This document shows, piece by piece, positions 30,573-39,291 of a stretch of DNA of 64,000 bases. The notes under the pieces were generated by a model that saw nothing but the letters and a program-made list of their open reading frames with translations, was not told the origin of the DNA and did not search any database. The DNA lies in contig JAAQTN010000008.1 of NCBI GenBank assembly GCA_011742915.1, positions 62,001 through 126,000 of the forward strand. Direction: 5' to 3'. How positions within the stretch are numbered: the stretch's first letter is position 1; each line of letters opens with the position of its first letter. The DNA is from Billgrantia desiderata. Its GTDB lineage: Bacteria > Pseudomonadota > Gammaproteobacteria > Pseudomonadales > Halomonadaceae. The position numbers and the translations under genes were made by a program.

Positions 30573-31049
30573 ATGAAGCTCGATCGATACGACCTGAAGA
30601 TTCTCGAGATCCTGTCCCGCGATGGACGCATCACCAAGTCGAAGCTGGCCGAGGCCATCAACCTCTCGGTCAGCCCGTGCTGGGAGCGGGTGCGGCGGCT
30701 GGAGAAGGCCGGCATCATCGAGGGTTACGGTGCGCGCATCAATCCCGATGCGCTGGTCAAGCGCACCCCGGTGTGGGTGCAGATCGAGCTCAAGCAGCAC
30801 AATGCCGAGAGCTTCGCCCGCTTCGAGGCGCTGGTCCACGAAACCCCCGAGGTCACCGAATGCGTGGCGGTGGGCGGCGGGGTCGATTACCTGATGAAGG
30901 TCGAGGCCGACTCCGTCGATGCCTACCAGCGTCTCATCGACGCCTGGCTCACCTCGGACGTCGGCATCGAGCGCTATTTCACCTACATCGTGACCAAGGC
31001 GGTCAAACGCCCCGCGCCGGGCCTGGCGCGGAGCGACTTTCTCAGTTGA
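30573..31049 (+). CDS. doeX: Lrp/AsnC-family regulator DoeX
   Basis: The 158-residue regulator has an N-terminal helix-turn-helix (DGRITKSKLAEAINLSVSPCWERVRRLEKAGII) and a C-terminal RAM ligand-binding domain (VTECVAVGGGVDYLMKVEADSVDAYQRLI). DoeX in H. elongata lies directly after doeAB and binds upstream DNA of the doe genes; position and length here agree. With the MocR gene upstream, this locus appears to have two dedicated regulators. It follows doeB by 54 nt and is probably part of the doeABX transcript. Diaminobutyrate or a related amino acid is the plausible effector, by inference. Confidence 0.92.
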   Translation: MKLDRYDLKILEILSRDGRITKSKLAEAINLSVSPCWERVRRLEKAGIIEGYGARINPDALVKRTPVWVQIELKQHNAESFARFEALVHETPEVTECVAVGGGVDYLMKVEADSVDAYQRLIDAWLTSDVGIERYFTYIVTKAVKRPAPGLARSDFLS

Positions 31050-31157: not shown

Positions 31158-31245
31158 AGCCGGGCGATCTTCCGGCATGTCATCGCGGTGCCGGACGAGT
31201 TGGTTAGCGCCCAGAGACAAGATCGCCTGACGTAGAGAGATGCCC

Positions 31246-32115
31246 ATGTCCTACTTCACCATTGCCGGGGTGCAGATGCAGGCCCTGCATCACGGTGACA
31301 ATACCGAGGCCATGCGCCACCGGGTCGACGCGCTGATGAGTCGCTTTCCCCAGGTGCAGATGGTTCTGTTCAGCGAGCTGATGCCGCTCGGCGCTTCGCC
31401 ACACCACGCCCACCCATTGCCCAGCCATGTCGAGCAGTTCTTCTGCCAGCTCGCCGAGCAGTACCGTATCTGGCTGATTCCCGGCTCCATGTTCGAACGC
31501 ACCGAGAGCGGTATCTACAACACCTTGTCGGTGATCGATCCGAGCGGCCAGGTGGTGGCGCGTTACCGCAAGATGTTCCCCTTCCGCCCCTACGAGGCCG
31601 GCGTGGAGAGCGGCACGGAGTTCGTCGTCTTCGACGTGCCCAACGTCGGTCGTTTCGGTGTGTCGATCTGCTACGACATGTGGTTCCCCGAGACCACCCG
31701 AACCCTGGCCGCCATGGGCGCCGAGGTGATTCTACACCCCACCATGACCGATACCATCGACCGCGACATCGAGCTTTCCATCGCCCGCACCAACGCCGCG
31801 GTCAACCAGTGCTACTTCTTCGACATCAACGGTGCCGGCGCCCTCGGCAACGGCCGTTCCATCGTGGTGGGCCCCTCTGGCGACGTGATCCATCAGGCCG
31901 GCACCGGTGAGGAGATCATGCCCATCGAGGTCGACTTCAGTCGGGTGCGGCGCGAGCGCGAGACGGGCCTGCGCGGCCTGGGGCAACCGCTCAAGAGCTT
32001 CCGCGACCGTCAGGTGGATTTCTCGGTCTACCGCTTCGAGCATGGTCCCTCGCCGTTTCTTGCCAGCCTGGGGCCGCTGGCCAAGCCGCAGCGCACCGAT
32101 ATCGAAGAGTATTGA
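31246..32115 (+). CDS. Nitrilase-superfamily carbon-nitrogen hydrolase (amidase)
   Basis: This 289-residue cytosolic hydrolase has the full Glu-Lys-Cys triad: Glu44 in LFSELMPLG, Lys109 in ARYRKMFPF and Cys142 in VSICYDMWFPE. The GRSIVVGPSGDVI segment is the usual C-terminal sheet. Family members hydrolyse linear amides such as N-carbamoylputrescine, omega-amides or formamide. The substrate here is unknown. ATG 31246 has GAGAG 6 nt upstream; ATG 31240 overlaps that site. It is the first gene of a four-gene set (31246-37603) lying between doeX and doeC. Activity on an amide made or consumed by the following ligase and Ntn enzyme is an inference from gene order. Confidence 0.88.
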   Translation: MSYFTIAGVQMQALHHGDNTEAMRHRVDALMSRFPQVQMVLFSELMPLGASPHHAHPLPSHVEQFFCQLAEQYRIWLIPGSMFERTESGIYNTLSVIDPSGQVVARYRKMFPFRPYEAGVESGTEFVVFDVPNVGRFGVSICYDMWFPETTRTLAAMGAEVILHPTMTDTIDRDIELSIARTNAAVNQCYFFDINGAGALGNGRSIVVGPSGDVIHQAGTGEEIMPIEVDFSRVRRERETGLRGLGQPLKSFRDRQVDFSVYRFEHGPSPFLASLGPLAKPQRTDIEEY

Positions 32116-32264
32116 CCCTTCAGGAGGTCGTCATGCGGGAGTTCCTGTTGCGCCTGATTCGGCTGTTGCAGCGGAGCTTCCCGTCGCGGGGCTCCACTGC
32201 GGCATTGGCCGCCGGTACAGGCCGCGCCGATGCTATCCCTTCCGTCATCGATGGAGCGAAAACA

Positions 32265-33737
32265 ATGAACAAGATCAACAACATTGCCGACGTTCGCCGT
32301 CATTTTCGCAACAACAAGGAGCCGGTCTACTTCATCTCGGCGACCAACTTCAACCTGCTCGGTATCGGCGACTGGGTGGGCAACTTCCGGCACATCAACT
32401 ACATCGACTGCTTCGACGGTCAGCAGCGCAACGTCTTCGTGCCCAAGGAGAAATTCCCGCGCGACTTCGAGAGCATCGAGGACATCAACAACTACCTGCT
32501 CGAACACAAGGAGGTGATCGACTTCATCCAGTCGCGGGCCAGCGGCGACGATGCCGGGGTAGCCGCCTTCCTGATGTTCGACGAGCATACCGAGGAGATC
32601 TGCCGGCAGCTCGGCCTGCGGGTCGCCTTCCCGCCGGCGGAGCTGCGCTCGCGCATGGACAACAAGATCGAGACGGTACGTATCGGCAACAAGGCCGGAG
32701 TGCCCAGCGTGCCCAACGTGCTGGCTAGGGTCGGCAGCTACCAGGAGTTGCTCGAGGTCAGCCGTGAGCTGGGCGACGACCTGGTGGTGCAGACCGCCTA
32801 CGGCGACTCCGGTCACACCACCTTCTTCATCGCCAGCGAAGACGACTACTACAAGCACGCCGAGGAGATCGAGGCCGAGCCCGAGGTCAAGATCATGAAG
32901 CGCATCAACTGCCGCGGCTCGGCCATCGAGGCCTGCGCCACCCGCTGCGGCACCGTGGTGGGGCCGTTGATGACCGAACTGGTGGGCTTCAAGTCGTTGA
33001 CTCCCTACAAGGGCGGCTGGTGCGGCAACGAGATGTTCGCCGGCGCCTTCAGCCAGGAGATCCGCGACAAGGCCCGCGAATACACCTTCAAGTTCGGCGA
33101 GGCCCTGCGCGAAGAAGGCTACCGCGGCTACTTCGAGCTCGACTTCCTGATCGACATGGACAACGGCGAGGTCTACCTGGGCGAACTCAACCCGCGGGTC
33201 ACCGGCGCCAGCTCGCTGACCAACGTGGCGGCCTTCGCCCACTCCGACATCCCGCTGTTCCTGTTCCACCTGCTGGAGTTCTCCGACGTCGAGTTCGATC
33301 TCGACATCGAGGAGATCAACGAGCGCTGGTCGCACCCCGACAGCGTCGACAGCTGGAGCCAGCTGGTGATCAAGCACACCGACGAGAGCGTCGATCTGCT
33401 CACCCGGGCGCCGCGTACCGGGGTGTGGACGCTGGGCGCGGACAACCGCATCGCCTATGACCACTACAGCTATCACCCCCATGCCGCCGAGAACGAGCGC
33501 GAGGCCTTCTTCCTGCGTATCAGCGGGCCGGGCGACTTCCGCTACGAGGGCGCCGACCTGGGCATCCTGATCACCCGGGGTCGCCTGATGGACGACGACT
33601 TCCAGCTCACCGAGCGGGCCAAGGCCTGGATCGAGGGCATTCGCGGCGAATACGCCGGCCAGCCGCTGCAGGACCCGCTGGTGGAGGAGGTCGCGGTGAG
33701 TCACGCCATCGGCGGCGGCAACTTCAAGATCCTATGA
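32265..33737 (+). CDS. ATP-grasp ligase of unknown substrate
   Basis: The 490-residue protein has an ATP-grasp fold. Nucleotide-binding lysines are likely in MDNKIETVRIGNKAGVPSVP and EVKIMKRINCRGSA, with a glycine-rich loop region AYGDSGHTTFFI. Metal ligands and the catalytic end lie in GYFELDFLID and YLGELNPRVTGASSLT, the pattern of carboxylate-amine ligases and biotin-carboxylase-like enzymes. It lacks a biotin carrier domain. It should activate a carboxylate as an acyl phosphate and join it to an amine or amino acid. ATG 32265 has GGAG 8 nt upstream. An in-frame ATG at 32133 with a much stronger AGGAGG site would add 44 basic, low-complexity residues. The stop overlaps the next gene (ATGA), so ligase and C45 enzyme are coupled. 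Confidence 0.82.
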   Translation: MNKINNIADVRRHFRNNKEPVYFISATNFNLLGIGDWVGNFRHINYIDCFDGQQRNVFVPKEKFPRDFESIEDINNYLLEHKEVIDFIQSRASGDDAGVAAFLMFDEHTEEICRQLGLRVAFPPAELRSRMDNKIETVRIGNKAGVPSVPNVLARVGSYQELLEVSRELGDDLVVQTAYGDSGHTTFFIASEDDYYKHAEEIEAEPEVKIMKRINCRGSAIEACATRCGTVVGPLMTELVGFKSLTPYKGGWCGNEMFAGAFSQEIRDKAREYTFKFGEALREEGYRGYFELDFLIDMDNGEVYLGELNPRVTGASSLTNVAAFAHSDIPLFLFHLLEFSDVEFDLDIEEINERWSHPDSVDSWSQLVIKHTDESVDLLTRAPRTGVWTLGADNRIAYDHYSYHPHAAENEREAFFLRISGPGDFRYEGADLGILITRGRLMDDDFQLTERAKAWIEGIRGEYAGQPLQDPLVEEVAVSHAIGGGNFKIL

Positions 33738-34762
33738 ACGGCGAAGTCGAGCGGCACCACCAGGCGCGGCGAGGGGAGATGGAGAAAGCGCTGGTCTTTC
33801 GTACCCTGCAGGAGGAGACGCCGGGGCCCAAGTGGCGATCGCTGTTCGATTACCATTGGCCGGCCTACGAGGCGTGGTACCTGGCCGAGGGGGAGCGTGA
33901 GCGGCCGGGTTACCTGAGCTGCTACAACGCCCTGCGTCGGCACATGCCGGAACTGCTGGACACTTACCGGGCGCTGTGCGAGCTGGCCGGGGGCGGCGAT
34001 CTGGCGGCGCGCTTTCTCAGTCTCTACCAGCCGCCGCCGTACATCACCGGCTGTTCCCAGGCGGTGCTGGTGCGCCATGGCGCGCCGGTGCTGGCGCGCA
34101 ACTACGACTACCCGCCCGAGCTGTGCGAGGGCACGGTGCTGTACACCCGCTGGAACGGACGCGGCGTGATCGCCATGACCGACTGCCTGTGGGGCGTGCT
34201 GGATGGCATGAACGAGGCGGGGCTGGCCGTGTCGCTGGCCTTCGGCGGACGCAAGGCGGTGGGCGAGGGCTTCGGCGCGCCGATCATCCTGCGCTATCTG
34301 CTGGAGTTCTGCGACAGCGTGCCCCAGGCCGCCGAGGTGCTGGCCCGGGTGCCCAGCCACATGGCCTACAACGTCACCCTGACCGATGCCGCGGGACGCT
34401 ATGTCACGGCGATGATCGCCCCCGACCAGCGGGCCAGCATCCGCCGGGTGGCGGTGGCCACCAACCACCAGAAGAAGATCGAGTGGTACGCCCATGCACT
34501 GGCCTCGGAAACCCTGATCCGCGAGCGCCAGCTGTCGATCCTGGTGGACGACCCGGCCACCAGCGAGGCGCGCCTGCTCGACGCCTTCGCCGCACCGCCG
34601 TTGTTTCGCCGCGACTACGCACGCGGGCTCGGCACCATCTACACCGCCGCCTACTGGCCGCTGTCGGGACGGATCAGCTATCGCTGGCCGCAGCAGCGTC
34701 TGGAACTGGCCTTCGAGCATTTTCCCGAACAGCAGTTGAGGGTCCGTTACGGCCCCAGGTAG
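33734..34762 (+). CDS. C45-family Ntn hydrolase/acyltransferase
   Basis: The 342-residue protein resembles the acyl-CoA:isopenicillin-N/6-APA acyltransferase family. The likely autoprocessing site is Gly106-Cys107 in PPYITGCSQAVL, where Cys107 would become the N-terminal nucleophile. Downstream segments LARNYDYPPE and AMTDCLWGVLDGMNEAGLAVSLAFGGR are typical of the Ntn core. Such enzymes hydrolyse or transfer acyl groups on amides and peptides. It starts within the stop codon of the ATP-grasp gene, so the two products probably act consecutively on one molecule. No signal peptide is visible. Conjugate formation followed by acyl transfer or release is plausible; nothing in the sequence fixes the substrate. 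Confidence 0.8.
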   Translation: MNGEVERHHQARRGEMEKALVFRTLQEETPGPKWRSLFDYHWPAYEAWYLAEGERERPGYLSCYNALRRHMPELLDTYRALCELAGGGDLAARFLSLYQPPPYITGCSQAVLVRHGAPVLARNYDYPPELCEGTVLYTRWNGRGVIAMTDCLWGVLDGMNEAGLAVSLAFGGRKAVGEGFGAPIILRYLLEFCDSVPQAAEVLARVPSHMAYNVTLTDAAGRYVTAMIAPDQRASIRRVAVATNHQKKIEWYAHALASETLIRERQLSILVDDPATSEARLLDAFAAPPLFRRDYARGLGTIYTAAYWPLSGRISYRWPQQRLELAFEHFPEQQLRVRYGPR

Positions 34763-34825
34763 CGTAGCCGCGGTATCGCGCAGGCGCCGCGGGAACAATA
34801 ACGACAAAGAGGGATGGGTGTCGCC

Positions 34826-37603
34826 ATGAACGAAAGCAGCCATACCGAAACGCCCTATACCGCGCTGGGCTTCTATCACAAGATCTCCCAGCTGCGCGCC
34901 GACACCTGGAACGCGCTCAAGCGCGACCTGGGACAGCTGGTGCGGCTCAACGACGAGAGCCGGGCACGTAACCTGATCAAGGCGATCGACGTCAAGCTGA
35001 CGCGCCTCGAGATCATCGAGGACTACCACGCCTTTCCCTCCAAGGAGGACTTCCGTCACCTCTGGGCGCTGTTCGACCGTGAGGAGTACGTGCTGCTGGA
35101 GAAGGTGGTCAAGCGGCTGGTGCGGGCGCTGATCAGCGAATCCTACCGTCGCCGCCACGTCGATCTCTCCGAGACCGATGCCGACGCCGAGGATCTCGAG
35201 ACCCTTGATGCCCTGGCGCAGCTGCGCCATGGGCATCCGGCCTCCAACAGCTCGGCCCAGCCCTATTTCGAGCTGCTGATCGTCGACAATCTCTCGTCCC
35301 AGGAAGAGGAGGTGGTGCGCGAGGCGTTCCATAGCCTGCGCCGGCCCGAGGACCGCTTCGTCTACGACGTGGTCACCGTACGCAGCTTCGAGGACGCCCT
35401 GATCGCGGTGCTGGTCAATCCCAACATCCAGGCCTGTCTGATCCGCTACGAGTTTCCCTACAAGTCCAAGTACAACCTCAGTGCGCTGCGCAACTACCTG
35501 GAGGGGCTCTCGGAGCAGGAGCTGGAGCACCAGTCGGAGGCCGAGCGCAGCATCCTGCTCAGCTCGATGATCCACGAGCTGCGCCCCGAGATCGATCAGT
35601 TCCTGGTCACCAGCGGCGACGTCGAGGCCACGGCGAGCCGCGACATCCGCCACTTCAACCGCATCTTCTATCGCGAGACCGACTACATCGAGCAGCACCA
35701 CACCATCCTGCGTGCCATCGACAGCCGCTACCGCACGCCGTTCTTCGACGCCCTGCGCGAATACAGCAAGAAGCCCACCGGGGTGTTCCACGCCATGCCC
35801 ATCTCGCGCGGCAAGTCGGTGACCCGCTCGCACTGGGCGGGGCACATGATCGACTTCTACGGCATCAACATCTTCCTCGCCGAGACCTCGGCCACCTCGG
35901 GCGGCCTCGATTCGCTGCTGCAGCCCTACGGTCCGATCAAGAAGGCCCAGGAGTACGCCGCCCGCGCCTTCGGGGCGCGCCAGAGCTTCTTCGTCACCAA
36001 CGGCACCTCGACGGCCAACAAGATCGTGGTGCAGGCGCTGGTCAAGCCCCGCGACATCGTGCTGATCGACCGCGACTGCCACAAGTCGCACCACTACGGC
36101 ATGGTGCTGGCGGGTGCCCACGTCAGCTACCTGGACTCCTATCCGCTCAACGATTACTCGATGTACGGCGCGGTGCCGCTGCGCGAGATCAAGAAGACGC
36201 TGCTGGAGTACAAGCGCGCCGGTCAGCTCCACCGGGTCAAGATGCTGCTGCTGACCAACTGCACCTTCGACGGCGTGGTCTACAACGTGCGTCGGGTGAT
36301 GGAGGAGTGCCTGGCGATCAAGCCCGACCTGGTGTTCCTGTGGGACGAGGCGTGGTTCGCCTTCGCCACCTTCAACCCCACCTACCGGCCGCGTACCGCC
36401 ATGCACGCTGCGCGCACCCTGCGCGAGCGCTACCGCAGCGAGGCCTACCGCGAGGAGTATGCGGCGTGGAAGGCGGAGTTCGATGCGCTCGACCCCGACG
36501 ACGATGCCACCTGGCTCGAGCGCCGGCTGCTGCCCGACCCGGAGACGGTGCGCATCCGCGCCTATGCCACCCACTCCACCCACAAGACCCTGACCTCGCT
36601 GCGCCAGGGCTCGATGATCCATGTCTGGGACCAGGACTTCCGCCAGAAGGTCGAGGCGCCGTTCCACGAGGCCTACATGACGCATACCTCCACCTCGCCC
36701 AACTATCAGATTGTGGCGTCGCTGGACGTTGGGCGCATGCAGGCCGAGATGGAGGGCTTCGAGCTGGTTCATGCCCAGGTGGAGGCGGCACTGTCGCTGC
36801 GCGAGCAGCTCTACACCCATCCGCTGCTGCAGAAGTACTTCCGGGTACTCAAGAACAGCGACATGGTGCCCGCCGAGTATCGTGAGTCGGGGGTCGAGTC
36901 CTACTTCGACCCGGTGACCGGCTGGAACCAGATGGAGGAGGCGTGGGCGCGGGACGAGTTCGTGGTCGATCCCACCCGGGTGACCATCGCCATCGGCAAC
37001 ACCGGGGTCGACGGCGACGCCTTCAAGAACGAATACCTGATGAACAAGTACGGCATTCAGATCAACAAGACCTCGCGCAACACCGTGCTGTTCATGACCA
37101 ACATCGGCACCACCCGCGGCTCCATCGCCTACCTGCTCGACGTGCTGATCAAGCTGGCCAAGGAGTTCGAGTACCGCTGGGAGGAGAGCAGCCGGCCCGA
37201 GCGCAAGATCATCGAACGCCGGGTGCATTCGCTGACCCAGGAGCTGCCGCCGCTGCCCGACTTCAGCCGCTTCCACGACGCCTTCCGCCAGTGCCCCGAG
37301 ACCCCCGAGGGCGACATTCGACGTGCCTACTTCCTCAGCTACGACGAGGAGAACACCGAGTACCTGCGCTTCGACAACGGCGAACTCCAGGCCGAGATGC
37401 GCGCCGGCCGCGACGTGGTCTCGGCCAGCTTCGTGATTCCCTATCCGCCGGGCTTCCCGGTGCTGGTGCCGGGGCAGGTGATCAGCGAGGAGATCCTCCA
37501 CTTCCTGCAGGCGCTCGACGTCAAGGAGATCCACGGCTACCGGCCGGAGCTGGGCCTGATCGTGTTCACCGAAGAGGCGCTGGCCGCGCCGCCGGAGACC
37601 TGA
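34826..37603 (+). CDS. Large PLP-dependent Orn/Lys/Arg-type decarboxylase
   Basis: The 925-residue protein belongs to the fold-type I basic amino-acid decarboxylases. The PLP lysine is Lys587 in ATHSTHKTLTSLRQGSM; cofactor contacts include FFVTNGTSTANKIV, DRDCHKSHHYG and LVFLWDEAWFAF. The wing-domain region (about 150-290, FELLIVDNLSSQEEEVV) and the C-terminal domain (FVIPYPPGFPVLVPGQVI) are present. It is about 200 residues longer than usual LdcC/SpeF/AdiA enzymes because of an N-terminal helical extension (about 1-140) rich in Arg, Lys and Glu. It should make an amine from a basic amino acid; which one is unclear. It ends the module before a terminator. ATG 34826 is preferred; ATG 34814 sits too close to the ribosome site. 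Confidence 0.88.
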   Translation: MNESSHTETPYTALGFYHKISQLRADTWNALKRDLGQLVRLNDESRARNLIKAIDVKLTRLEIIEDYHAFPSKEDFRHLWALFDREEYVLLEKVVKRLVRALISESYRRRHVDLSETDADAEDLETLDALAQLRHGHPASNSSAQPYFELLIVDNLSSQEEEVVREAFHSLRRPEDRFVYDVVTVRSFEDALIAVLVNPNIQACLIRYEFPYKSKYNLSALRNYLEGLSEQELEHQSEAERSILLSSMIHELRPEIDQFLVTSGDVEATASRDIRHFNRIFYRETDYIEQHHTILRAIDSRYRTPFFDALREYSKKPTGVFHAMPISRGKSVTRSHWAGHMIDFYGINIFLAETSATSGGLDSLLQPYGPIKKAQEYAARAFGARQSFFVTNGTSTANKIVVQALVKPRDIVLIDRDCHKSHHYGMVLAGAHVSYLDSYPLNDYSMYGAVPLREIKKTLLEYKRAGQLHRVKMLLLTNCTFDGVVYNVRRVMEECLAIKPDLVFLWDEAWFAFATFNPTYRPRTAMHAARTLRERYRSEAYREEYAAWKAEFDALDPDDDATWLERRLLPDPETVRIRAYATHSTHKTLTSLRQGSMIHVWDQDFRQKVEAPFHEAYMTHTSTSPNYQIVASLDVGRMQAEMEGFELVHAQVEAALSLREQLYTHPLLQKYFRVLKNSDMVPAEYRESGVESYFDPVTGWNQMEEAWARDEFVVDPTRVTIAIGNTGVDGDAFKNEYLMNKYGIQINKTSRNTVLFMTNIGTTRGSIAYLLDVLIKLAKEFEYRWEESSRPERKIIERRVHSLTQELPPLPDFSRFHDAFRQCPETPEGDIRRAYFLSYDEENTEYLRFDNGELQAEMRAGRDVVSASFVIPYPPGFPVLVPGQVISEEILHFLQALDVKEIHGYRPELGLIVFTEEALAAPPET

Positions 37604-37716
37604 GCGCCGCGCGCAGAAAAAAACGCAACTTAGCTCTGGAGGACAAAAAAAAGCGCACTTGCCCTGCCGGTTAACGAAAAGTCCCGCCCCGGGTTTGCCC
37701 TTACCCTGTAGCCATC

Positions 37717-37745
37717 GAGCAGCCGCCGGCTGCTCTGTCGTTTTG
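37717..37745 (+). terminator. Terminator after the decarboxylase gene
   Basis: GAGCAGCC (37717-37724) pairs perfectly with 37728-37735 around a GCC loop, and TGTCGTTTT follows. It separates the four-gene module from doeC, arguing that doeC has its own promoter in the 188-bp gap. That gap also has two A-runs near 37616 and 37646. Confidence 0.65.
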
Positions 37746-37791
37746 CCACAGCCGGCCCGTGAGCGAGGGGCCGGTGTCAGGGGAGGTGCCC

Positions 37792-39291
37792 ATGAACATG
37801 AAGCTGACCAATACACTGTCCACCATGCTCGATGATCCGCGTCTGTTTCGTCAGCACGCCTATGTGAACGGCAAATGGACCCACGGCGACGGCGGCCGTG
37901 AGGAGACGGTGTTCGATCCTGCCACCGGCGAGGTCATCGGCTACATCCCCTGGCTCGAGGCGCATCAGATCCGTGAAGCGGTAGACGCCGCCGATGCCGC
38001 CTTCGTGCACTGGCGTGCGCTGCGTGCAGACGAGCGCGCCGAGCGGCTCATGGCCTGGCACGACCTGCTGCAGGCCCACCGCGAGGACCTCGCCATCATC
38101 ATGACCCTGGAGCAGGGCAAGCCGCTGCCCGACGCCCGCGGCGAGGTGGAGTACGGCGCCAGCTTCGTGCGCTGGTTCGCCGAGGAGGGCAAGCGCACCT
38201 TCGGCGAGACCATTCCCAGCCACATCCCCAACGCCGCCCTGGGCACGCTCAAGGAGCCGGTGGGCATCGCCGCGCTGATCACGCCGTGGAACTTCCCGCT
38301 GGCGATGATCACGCGCAAGGCCGCCGCCGCCCTGGCCGCCGGCTGCACCGTGGTGGTCAAGCCGGCCGGCGAGACGCCGTTCTCGGCGCTGGCACTGGCC
38401 GAGCTGGCCGAGCGTGCCGGCATTCCGGCAGGCGTGTTCAACGTGGTACTGGGCGAGCCCGCCGAGGTCTCGAAAATTCTATGTGCTGAAGAGCGGGTCA
38501 AGGCGCTATCCTTCACCGGTTCCACCCGGGTCGGCCGGCTGCTGCTCGAGCAGAGTGCCCAGACGGTGAAGCGCGTGTCGCTGGAGCTCGGCGGCAACGC
38601 CCCGTTCATCGTCGGCCCCGACATGGACCCCAAGGAGGCGGCCTTTGCCGCGGTGGCGGCCAAGTTCCAGACCGCCGGTCAGGACTGCCTGGCGGCCAAC
38701 CGCATCCTGGTGCACGAGTCGATCCACGACGAGTTCGTCGAACACTTCGCCGAGCGCATGGCGGCATTGACCGTGGGCAACGGCATGGAGAGCGAGGTCG
38801 ACCTGGGGCCGCTGATCCATCGTCAGGCGGTGGACAAGGCGGCGGCCATCGTCGACGACGCCATCTCCCGTGGCGCCACGCTGGTGGCCGGCGACCAGAC
38901 CCGGGCACCGGGAGAGAACTTCTTCATGCCCACGCTGCTCACCGGCGTGACCCCGCAGATGAAGGTATGGCGCGAGGAGAACTTCGCCCCGGTGGCCGGC
39001 GTGACCGCCTACCGCGACGACGACGAAGTGATCGAGATGGCCAACGACACCGAGTACGGCCTGGCGGCCTATGTCTACACCCACGACATCCGCCGCATCT
39101 GGAAGCTGCTGCGGGCGCTGGAGTACGGCATGGTCAGCGTCAACTCGGTGAAGATGACCGGCCCGCCCGTGCCCTTCGGCGGCGTCAAGCAGTCGGGGCT
39201 GGGCCGCGAGGGCGGCATCACCGGGATCGATGAGTATCTCGAGACCAAGTATTACTGCCTGGGGGCTTTGGGGTCCGTATCGGGGAGCTGA
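37792..39291 (+). CDS. doeC: Aspartate-semialdehyde dehydrogenase of ectoine catabolism
   Basis: The 499-residue NAD(P)-dependent aldehyde dehydrogenase oxidises aspartate semialdehyde, the DoeD product, to aspartate. Catalytic Cys299 lies in TAGQDCLAANRI, the general base Glu265 in LELGGNAPF, and the cofactor region in PWNFPLAMITRKAAAALAAG. It resembles GabD-type succinate-semialdehyde dehydrogenases, as DoeC does; the neighbouring doeD supports the ectoine role. ATG 37792 follows GGAGG at a 5-nt spacing. It lies downstream of a terminator, so it probably starts a doeC-doeD unit. Cytosolic. Confidence 0.92.
   Translation: MNMKLTNTLSTMLDDPRLFRQHAYVNGKWTHGDGGREETVFDPATGEVIGYIPWLEAHQIREAVDAADAAFVHWRALRADERAERLMAWHDLLQAHREDLAIIMTLEQGKPLPDARGEVEYGASFVRWFAEEGKRTFGETIPSHIPNAALGTLKEPVGIAALITPWNFPLAMITRKAAAALAAGCTVVVKPAGETPFSALALAELAERAGIPAGVFNVVLGEPAEVSKILCAEERVKALSFTGSTRVGRLLLEQSAQTVKRVSLELGGNAPFIVGPDMDPKEAAFAAVAAKFQTAGQDCLAANRILVHESIHDEFVEHFAERMAALTVGNGMESEVDLGPLIHRQAVDKAAAIVDDAISRGATLVAGDQTRAPGENFFMPTLLTGVTPQMKVWREENFAPVAGVTAYRDDDEVIEMANDTEYGLAAYVYTHDIRRIWKLLRALEYGMVSVNSVKMTGPPVPFGGVKQSGLGREGGITGIDEYLETKYYCLGALGSVSGS

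Follow-up and report, generated by a model that had tools for sequence, protein, structure and literature searches.

A four-gene ligase, amide hydrolase and decarboxylase module at the ectoine locus of Billgrantia desiderata, with a possible role in an amide-linked route to GABA

We analysed a stretch of 64,000 nucleotides from Billgrantia desiderata (contig JAAQTN010000008.1, positions 62,001 to 126,000; hereafter the window), which carries a four-gene module within the ectoine degradation (doe) locus. The genes lie head to tail on the plus strand, with doeA, doeB and doeX on one side and doeC, doeD, eutB and eutC on the other. They encode a nitrilase-superfamily amidase of 291 residues (AMID, 31240..32115, alternative ATG at 31246), an ATP-grasp ligase of 490 residues (GRASP, 32265..33737), a C45-family, predicted autoproteolytic N-terminal nucleophile (Ntn) acyltransferase/hydrolase of 342 residues (C45, 33734..34762) and a 929-residue pyridoxal 5′-phosphate (PLP)-dependent decarboxylase of the ornithine/lysine/arginine (Orn/Lys/Arg) fold-I class (DCX, 34814..37603, alternative ATG at 34826). 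A preliminary description of this DNA had reported four co-directional open reading frames (ORFs) that follow doeX and end ahead of doeC, with an ATGA overlap of the second and third (GRASP and C45), and had grouped them as one uncharacterised module of a ligase, an amidase, an acyltransferase and a decarboxylase. All of these features are present in the window; a characterisation of the module was not found in the open literature, nor was the gene combination found described in open PubMed Central papers. The GC content of the module genes (63.7-68.6%) did not differ from that of the doe genes (63.9-68.6%). A defence function was considered and rejected, as a PADLOC search matched none of the four proteins.

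AMID scored 117.6 bits against the Pfam model CN_hydrolase (cut-off 23.2). Its nitrilase-superfamily triad, Glu46/Lys111/Cys144, was conserved in all of the 37 homologues aligned and is the Glu44-Lys109-Cys142 triad reported earlier, here numbered from 31240 instead of 31246. AMID remained far below the cut-off of the N-carbamoylputrescine amidase model TIGR03381 (81.6 bits for 410.25). C45 belongs to the C45 (AAT) Ntn family by its family model, its predicted fold and its Gly-Cys nucleophile. Cys107 was invariant in 43 of 43 aligned homologues and Gly106 was found in at least 90% of them; autoproteolytic cleavage is predicted before Cys107. In one congener, the C45 gene of the module has an in-frame stop and a second C45, 44% identical, is encoded elsewhere in the genome.

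GRASP has the ATP-grasp fold by prediction and passes the NCBIfam model NF005096, named 'biotin carboxylase', with 758.2 bits (cut-off 684). It keeps E307, N309 and R311 of the ExNxRxQVE motif, the residues of which, last glutamate included, we take to act in bicarbonate/biotin handling. Ala315 stands where anchoring of the motif by eye puts AccC E296, a placement made from the motif only; the HHalign alignment with AccC covered just GRASP residues 102-183 and, like that with PurK, was too weak for placing C-terminal residues. No biotin carrier protein or carboxyltransferase appeared in the feature tables of three other loci (L118, L119, L123) or was noticed among the window ORFs of at least 100 residues, no dedicated search having been made.

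DCX contains the major domain of the Orn/Lys/Arg decarboxylases (OKR_DC_1, PF01276; 258.9 bits, cut-off 27) with its PLP lysine. Lys591, which is the earlier Lys587 when counted from 34814 instead of 34826, aligns with AdiA Lys386, and lysine occupies this column in 74 of 74 DCX rows. The scores were far under the cut-offs of the specific NCBIfam models for lysine (215.3 for 968 bits), arginine (196.8 for 1167) and ornithine decarboxylases (180.4 for 794). DCX keeps the catalytic lysine and histidine, and the acidic residue of the presumed pocket columns is replaced. Where CadA and LdcC have E526 and SpeF has E532, all 73 DCX rows have asparagine (Asn751); where AdiA has D575, 72 of the 73 have arginine (Arg755). 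In each of these four basic amino acid decarboxylases of E. coli, one of the two columns is acidic. Many of the 73 rows are close Halomonadaceae, and a set of 11 DCX rows, ten of them from other loci, agrees. CadA E526 and its equivalents presumably contact the substrate. With this acid lost, DCX is unlikely to act on a basic amino acid. The preliminary description had proposed an amide conjugate of an amine derived from a basic amino acid, an origin made unlikely by the same change. The closest solved chains, 9n0n (E = 2.9e-251) and 9n0o (E = 3.8e-251), are those of the mycobacterial amino acid decarboxylase Rv2531c, aligned over DCX residues 18-925 and differing by an isoleucine where DCX has R755. 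In the part of its description available to us, the function of Rv2531c is likewise not established (PMC12910592).

Within the genus, the four genes occur together or not at all, with two exceptions. Among 90 congeners, GRASP and C45 were each found in 62, and DCX and AMID in 64; all four occurred in the same 62 genomes and none in 26. In the two exceptions (G235 and G262) the assembly is fragmented and a contig starts with DCX, so that the middle of the module was probably lost to an assembly gap. Few genomes of the phylum carry GRASP, as two overlapping draws gave 7 in 200 and 11 in 398. In a wider genome scan, the best 80 of at least 564 GRASP relatives were taken as loci together with as much as 10 kb of flank, less where a contig ended sooner. 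All 80 contained C45 (three partial), 71 contained DCX (four partial, of which three lie at contig ends) and 70 contained AMID; three of the nine loci without DCX end at a contig end. Thirty-eight of the 80 are Halomonadaceae loci in which doeX precedes and doeC follows the module, and all 38 carry the four genes. The flanks of the other 42 showed no doeA, doeB or doeX match of at least 60% (four had a doeA-like match of 25-27%), and modules without these genes nearby were seen in Marinobacter, alphaproteobacterial and planctomycete loci. The co-occurrence check proposed in the preliminary description was thereby run; the families co-occur in distant genomes and the notion of a module withstood it. 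Overall, AMID-GRASP-C45-DCX forms a cassette of patchy distribution, present as a whole or not at all, which among the best 80 loci lies inside the doe locus only in Halomonadaceae.

Some individual loci are worth recording. An Osedax symbiont (L058) has just an 8% piece of DCX ahead of GRASP, and a DCX-less Burkholderiales locus (L075) has a C45 match over only 42%; both may reflect decay or a swap. The GRASP of a Bacillota-labelled contig (L079, Oceanobacillus sp. HTM 045) groups with that of the alphaproteobacterial Minwuia, which suggests a mixed bin or a transfer. That of Halomonas salinarum (L045) groups with Marinobacter and not with other Halomonadaceae (95/94), despite its position in the doe locus. 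In seven S. medicae plasmid records (H25-H31), the GRASP match is split between two hypothetical proteins and its two pieces cover 40% of the query, which suggests a broken gene.

The left border of the module is doeX (30573..31049, plus strand), the end of the doeABX block, placed by tblastn neighbours and by doeX-doeC adjacency in module-less genomes. On the right, the same strand carries the doeC upstream region (37604..37791), which is matched in module-less relatives and so is not module-specific, and doeC itself (37792..39291). doeC was found in 27 of the 28 congeners without GRASP. doeX directly precedes it in 25 of these 27, and DCX does so in the remaining two, G235 and G262. As given in the part of the H. 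elongata study at hand (PMC3187862), doeA, doeB, doeX, doeC and doeD are consecutive there (Helo_3665 to Helo_3661), module genes are absent, and doeABX form one operon that excludes doeC. The position of the module therefore corresponds to a transcript border in H. elongata, a plausible landing place. In one module-less locus, L125, a remnant of the DCX 3′ end with 20 of 22 bases kept stands, in register, ahead of the doeC upstream region that the loci share. None of 20,000 spacer shuffles reached 20 of 22, and the other 24 module-less loci had at most 14-16 of 22 bases anywhere in the locus. The doeC of L125 is the closest to that of the window among module-less genomes. At least the L125 lineage has lost the module by deletion. 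In Billgrantia antri (L051), about 7 kb of extra DNA lie between doeX and AMID.

A terminator had been proposed before doeC. The inverted repeat at 37717-37735 is one of three terminator-like sites, as compared to a shuffle mean of 2.8, and it also precedes doeC in relatives that have no module (clearly so in five of the seven inspected, L125-L129). It is thus part of the doeC upstream region and no module terminator. From 37604 to 37790, A-rich blocks and this repeat are conserved in module-less relatives, and this stretch is likely the regulatory region of doeCD.

The module had also been linked to ectoine, to diaminobutyrate or to the DoeB product, and an ectoine-catabolic side branch that uses one of the latter two would fit the doeX-module-doeC order in 38 of the 80 loci. 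However, doeX adjoins doeC without a module in 25 congeners, H. elongata degrades ectoine without it (in the portion of PMC3187862 available), 42 of the 80 loci lack doeA, doeB and doeX matches of at least 60% in their flanks, and the end of the doeABX operon offers a landing place. With empty doeX-doeC sites, the L125 scar and carriers devoid of doe genes, the side branch was rejected as highly improbable. The module is a dispensable passenger at the doe locus, and its ectoine/diaminobutyrate link is mostly positional.

Neighbourhoods elsewhere were counted over 49 loci, that is the 42 loci without such doe matches and seven plasmid loci, leaving out the 38 Halomonadaceae doe loci with their one shared context. 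GRASP and C45 were present in all 49, DCX in 39, AMID in 35, a transaminase-like gene (gabT) for 4-aminobutyrate (GABA) in 11, TAXI genes in 7, and SpeB and AruI in 5 each; the reference queries were drawn from some of the same loci, so that self-matches are included. Among the 11 gabT matches are the query's own locus, a weak match (L082, 32%) and a match that lies at the edge of a contig (L074); for AruI, L087 gives a weak match (29%). Two gabT proteins that were checked pass the GABA transaminase cut-off of TIGR00700. In Roseobacter ponti, gabT, AMID, DCX, GRASP, C45 and a peptide-type ATP-binding cassette (ABC) transporter stand together. Of the 11 carriers in the evenly drawn phylum sample of 398 genomes, four are the window genome or belong to its genus, its family or Marinobacter; the other seven were mapped and showed C45 in 7, DCX in 7 and AMID in 5. 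Two of these seven have TAXI genes nearby, and two characterised TAXI proteins bind glutamate, according to the available text of their reports (PMC11574862, PMC12344293). A gabT homologue, the single one at E <= 1e-100, lies about 10 kb from GRASP in three of the seven (G007, G083, G427), and none was found within the 20 kb mapped around GRASP in G045 and G073. In 18 chosen genomes, a transaminase at E <= 1e-100 was found in 15, as a single copy in 13, and near the module by contig positions in 11 of the 15, which is no rate since the genomes were picked partly for gabT proximity.

A second context appeared at loci without DCX, which carry AruI (passing NF005712), SpeB (passing TIGR01230), a D-amino-acid dehydrogenase, an ornithine-racemase-like protein and an aldehyde dehydrogenase. 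At the DCX-less locus of Shinella zoogloeoides, GRASP and C45 are accompanied by a permease, an agmatinase-like protein, 5-guanidino-2-oxopentanoate decarboxylase, an aldehyde dehydrogenase, a D-amino acid dehydrogenase, a racemase and RidA; a CN hydrolase is encoded close by. In the GRASP tree, this arginine-gene context needs at least two changes. Thiofilum stands apart from Shinella and Labrys, and the Rhizobium/Sinorhizobium DCX loci are closer to Shinella than Labrys is (91/84, under the starred level) within a clade of all three supported at 100/100. From this pattern, GRASP-C45 appears to be the constant core, with DCX and the arginine genes taking each other's place beside it. The 'alanine racemase' of the Shinella zoogloeoides plasmid (L118:15788-17575) resembles ornithine racemase in residues 4-354 and, weakly, arginase in 459-569, and is apparently a fusion.

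On a plasmid of R. leguminosarum Vaf10 (L123), DCX, GRASP and C45 lie directly beside nifHDKEN. There and on a plasmid of S. meliloti SM11 (L121), DCX-GRASP-C45 are followed by a peptide-type ABC transporter, an amidase, an RpiR regulator and a serine hydrolase. The known bacteroid arginine network was considered and set aside, as the available part of its CATCH-N account (PMC7268258) does not name the module genes; it describes SMa0684 as an antiporter, and SMa0680/0682 are described as decarboxylases in the accessible text of PMC2912261 and of other papers. Cyanophycin dipeptides were considered as a link, and a literature search brought up nothing related.

GABA is the shared endpoint of the two informative gene contexts, which favours, tentatively and at less than even odds, an amide-carrier route that makes and releases GABA from glutamyl- or 4-guanidinobutyryl-type substrates. 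GRASP would join a carboxylic acid of the glutamate or 4-guanidinobutyrate type to an amine carrier X at the expense of ATP. DCX would then remove the alpha-carboxyl of the glutamyl part, converting gamma-glutamyl-X to 4-aminobutyryl-X, and C45 (or AMID in the case of a simple amide) would cleave the amide to free GABA, which GabT and GabD could convert to succinate. In the DCX-less loci of Shinella, Labrys and Thiofilum, the acid might be supplied from arginine via 2-ketoarginine and 4-guanidinobutyrate. What X is, whether the route is catabolic or biosynthetic and which substrates the enzymes use are all guesses. In its broadest form, the proposal would describe a multi-phylum amide-carrier GABA pathway, nif-linked on a Rhizobium plasmid, in which GRASP forms glutamyl-X, DCX aminobutyryl-X and C45 GABA, with DCX the first Orn/Lys/Arg-type decarboxylase acting on an acidic or gamma-glutamyl-amide substrate; so extended, it is doubtful.

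Several observations weigh against the amide-carrier route. A GABA context is confined to a minority of loci. None was found in the flanks of the Marinobacter loci L041, L043 and L044 or of L052, L064, L070 and L071. The annotated Rhizobium locus L123 has neither AMID nor gabT. gabT lies elsewhere in the genome in G323, is absent at E <= 1e-100 from G350 and is on another contig in the genome of the window. The DCX locus L068 carries an agmatinase, fitting arginine/agmatine. The proposed route leaves the need for a ligase ahead of decarboxylation unexplained. Finally, the accessible part of PMC7866039 makes no mention of a substrate contact of the CadA E526 type.

Two other explanations were weighed. 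DCX could decarboxylate a basic amino acid, turning arginine into agmatine, with GRASP capping the amine as in gamma-glutamylputrescine and C45/AMID uncapping it after oxidation to yield GABA. The class of DCX, the SpeB-like agmatinase adjoining it in L068, the arginine genes of DCX-less loci and an acetylpolyamine-amidohydrolase-like ORF in L087 (named by eye, without an NCBIfam match) all point that way. However, the asparagine and arginine at the columns that are acidic in the E. coli enzymes, the low scores with the lysine, arginine and ornithine models, and a four-gene core without oxidase or aldehyde dehydrogenase make such a polyamine route rather unlikely. Alternatively, a GABA-type amide serving as osmolyte, storage compound or signal could be the end product, with C45 acting as an acyltransferase and AMID/GabT in turnover. 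A ligase combined with a C45 acyltransferase fold, the presence of the module in many Halomonadaceae and its nif-adjacent position on a plasmid of Rhizobium would suit biosynthesis. We nevertheless hold it to be unlikely, as the adjoining transporters are importer-like by annotation (TAXI-TRAP, peptide-type ABC with binding protein) and the recurrent partners, GabT, SpeB and AruI, are catabolic.

Genes now called 'biotin carboxylase', 'ornithine decarboxylase' and 'C45 peptidase' point to a conserved pathway that was not found described in open papers, an orphan decarboxylase family including Rv2531c gains a genome context, and position in the ectoine locus proves a poor guide to the function of this module. 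If the GABA reading were true, the module would be another ATP-dependent amide route to GABA and a lead on what rhizobia process next to nif genes.

Parallels with known systems are partial. Genes of the route from arginine via 2-ketoarginine and 4-guanidinobutyrate to GABA (AruI, guanidinobutyrase) replace DCX near GRASP-C45 in Shinella, Labrys and Thiofilum; to our knowledge, that route needs no ligase, C45 or amidase. C45 shares, by prediction, the fold of isopenicillin N acyltransferase, with the cysteine after glycine at the expected place, but identity is about 14% and the genome context is unrelated. In butirosin formation, the ATP-grasp ligase BtrJ and the PLP decarboxylase BtrK produce a GABA acyl group from a glutamyl unit held as a carrier-protein thioester. 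The module too pairs an ATP-grasp ligase with a PLP decarboxylase; BtrK is of fold III whereas DCX is of the fold-I class, and no carrier protein was seen with the module. In the Puu pathway, putrescine is gamma-glutamylated by the glutamine-synthetase-like PuuA, and PuuD is a class I glutamine amidotransferase. The module differs by its use of ATP-grasp and C45 proteins and by a core without oxidase, homologues of PuuA/B/C/D not having been searched for. With the Puu pathway, the proposed route would share ATP-dependent amide capping, later hydrolysis of the amide, and GABA with GabT at its end.

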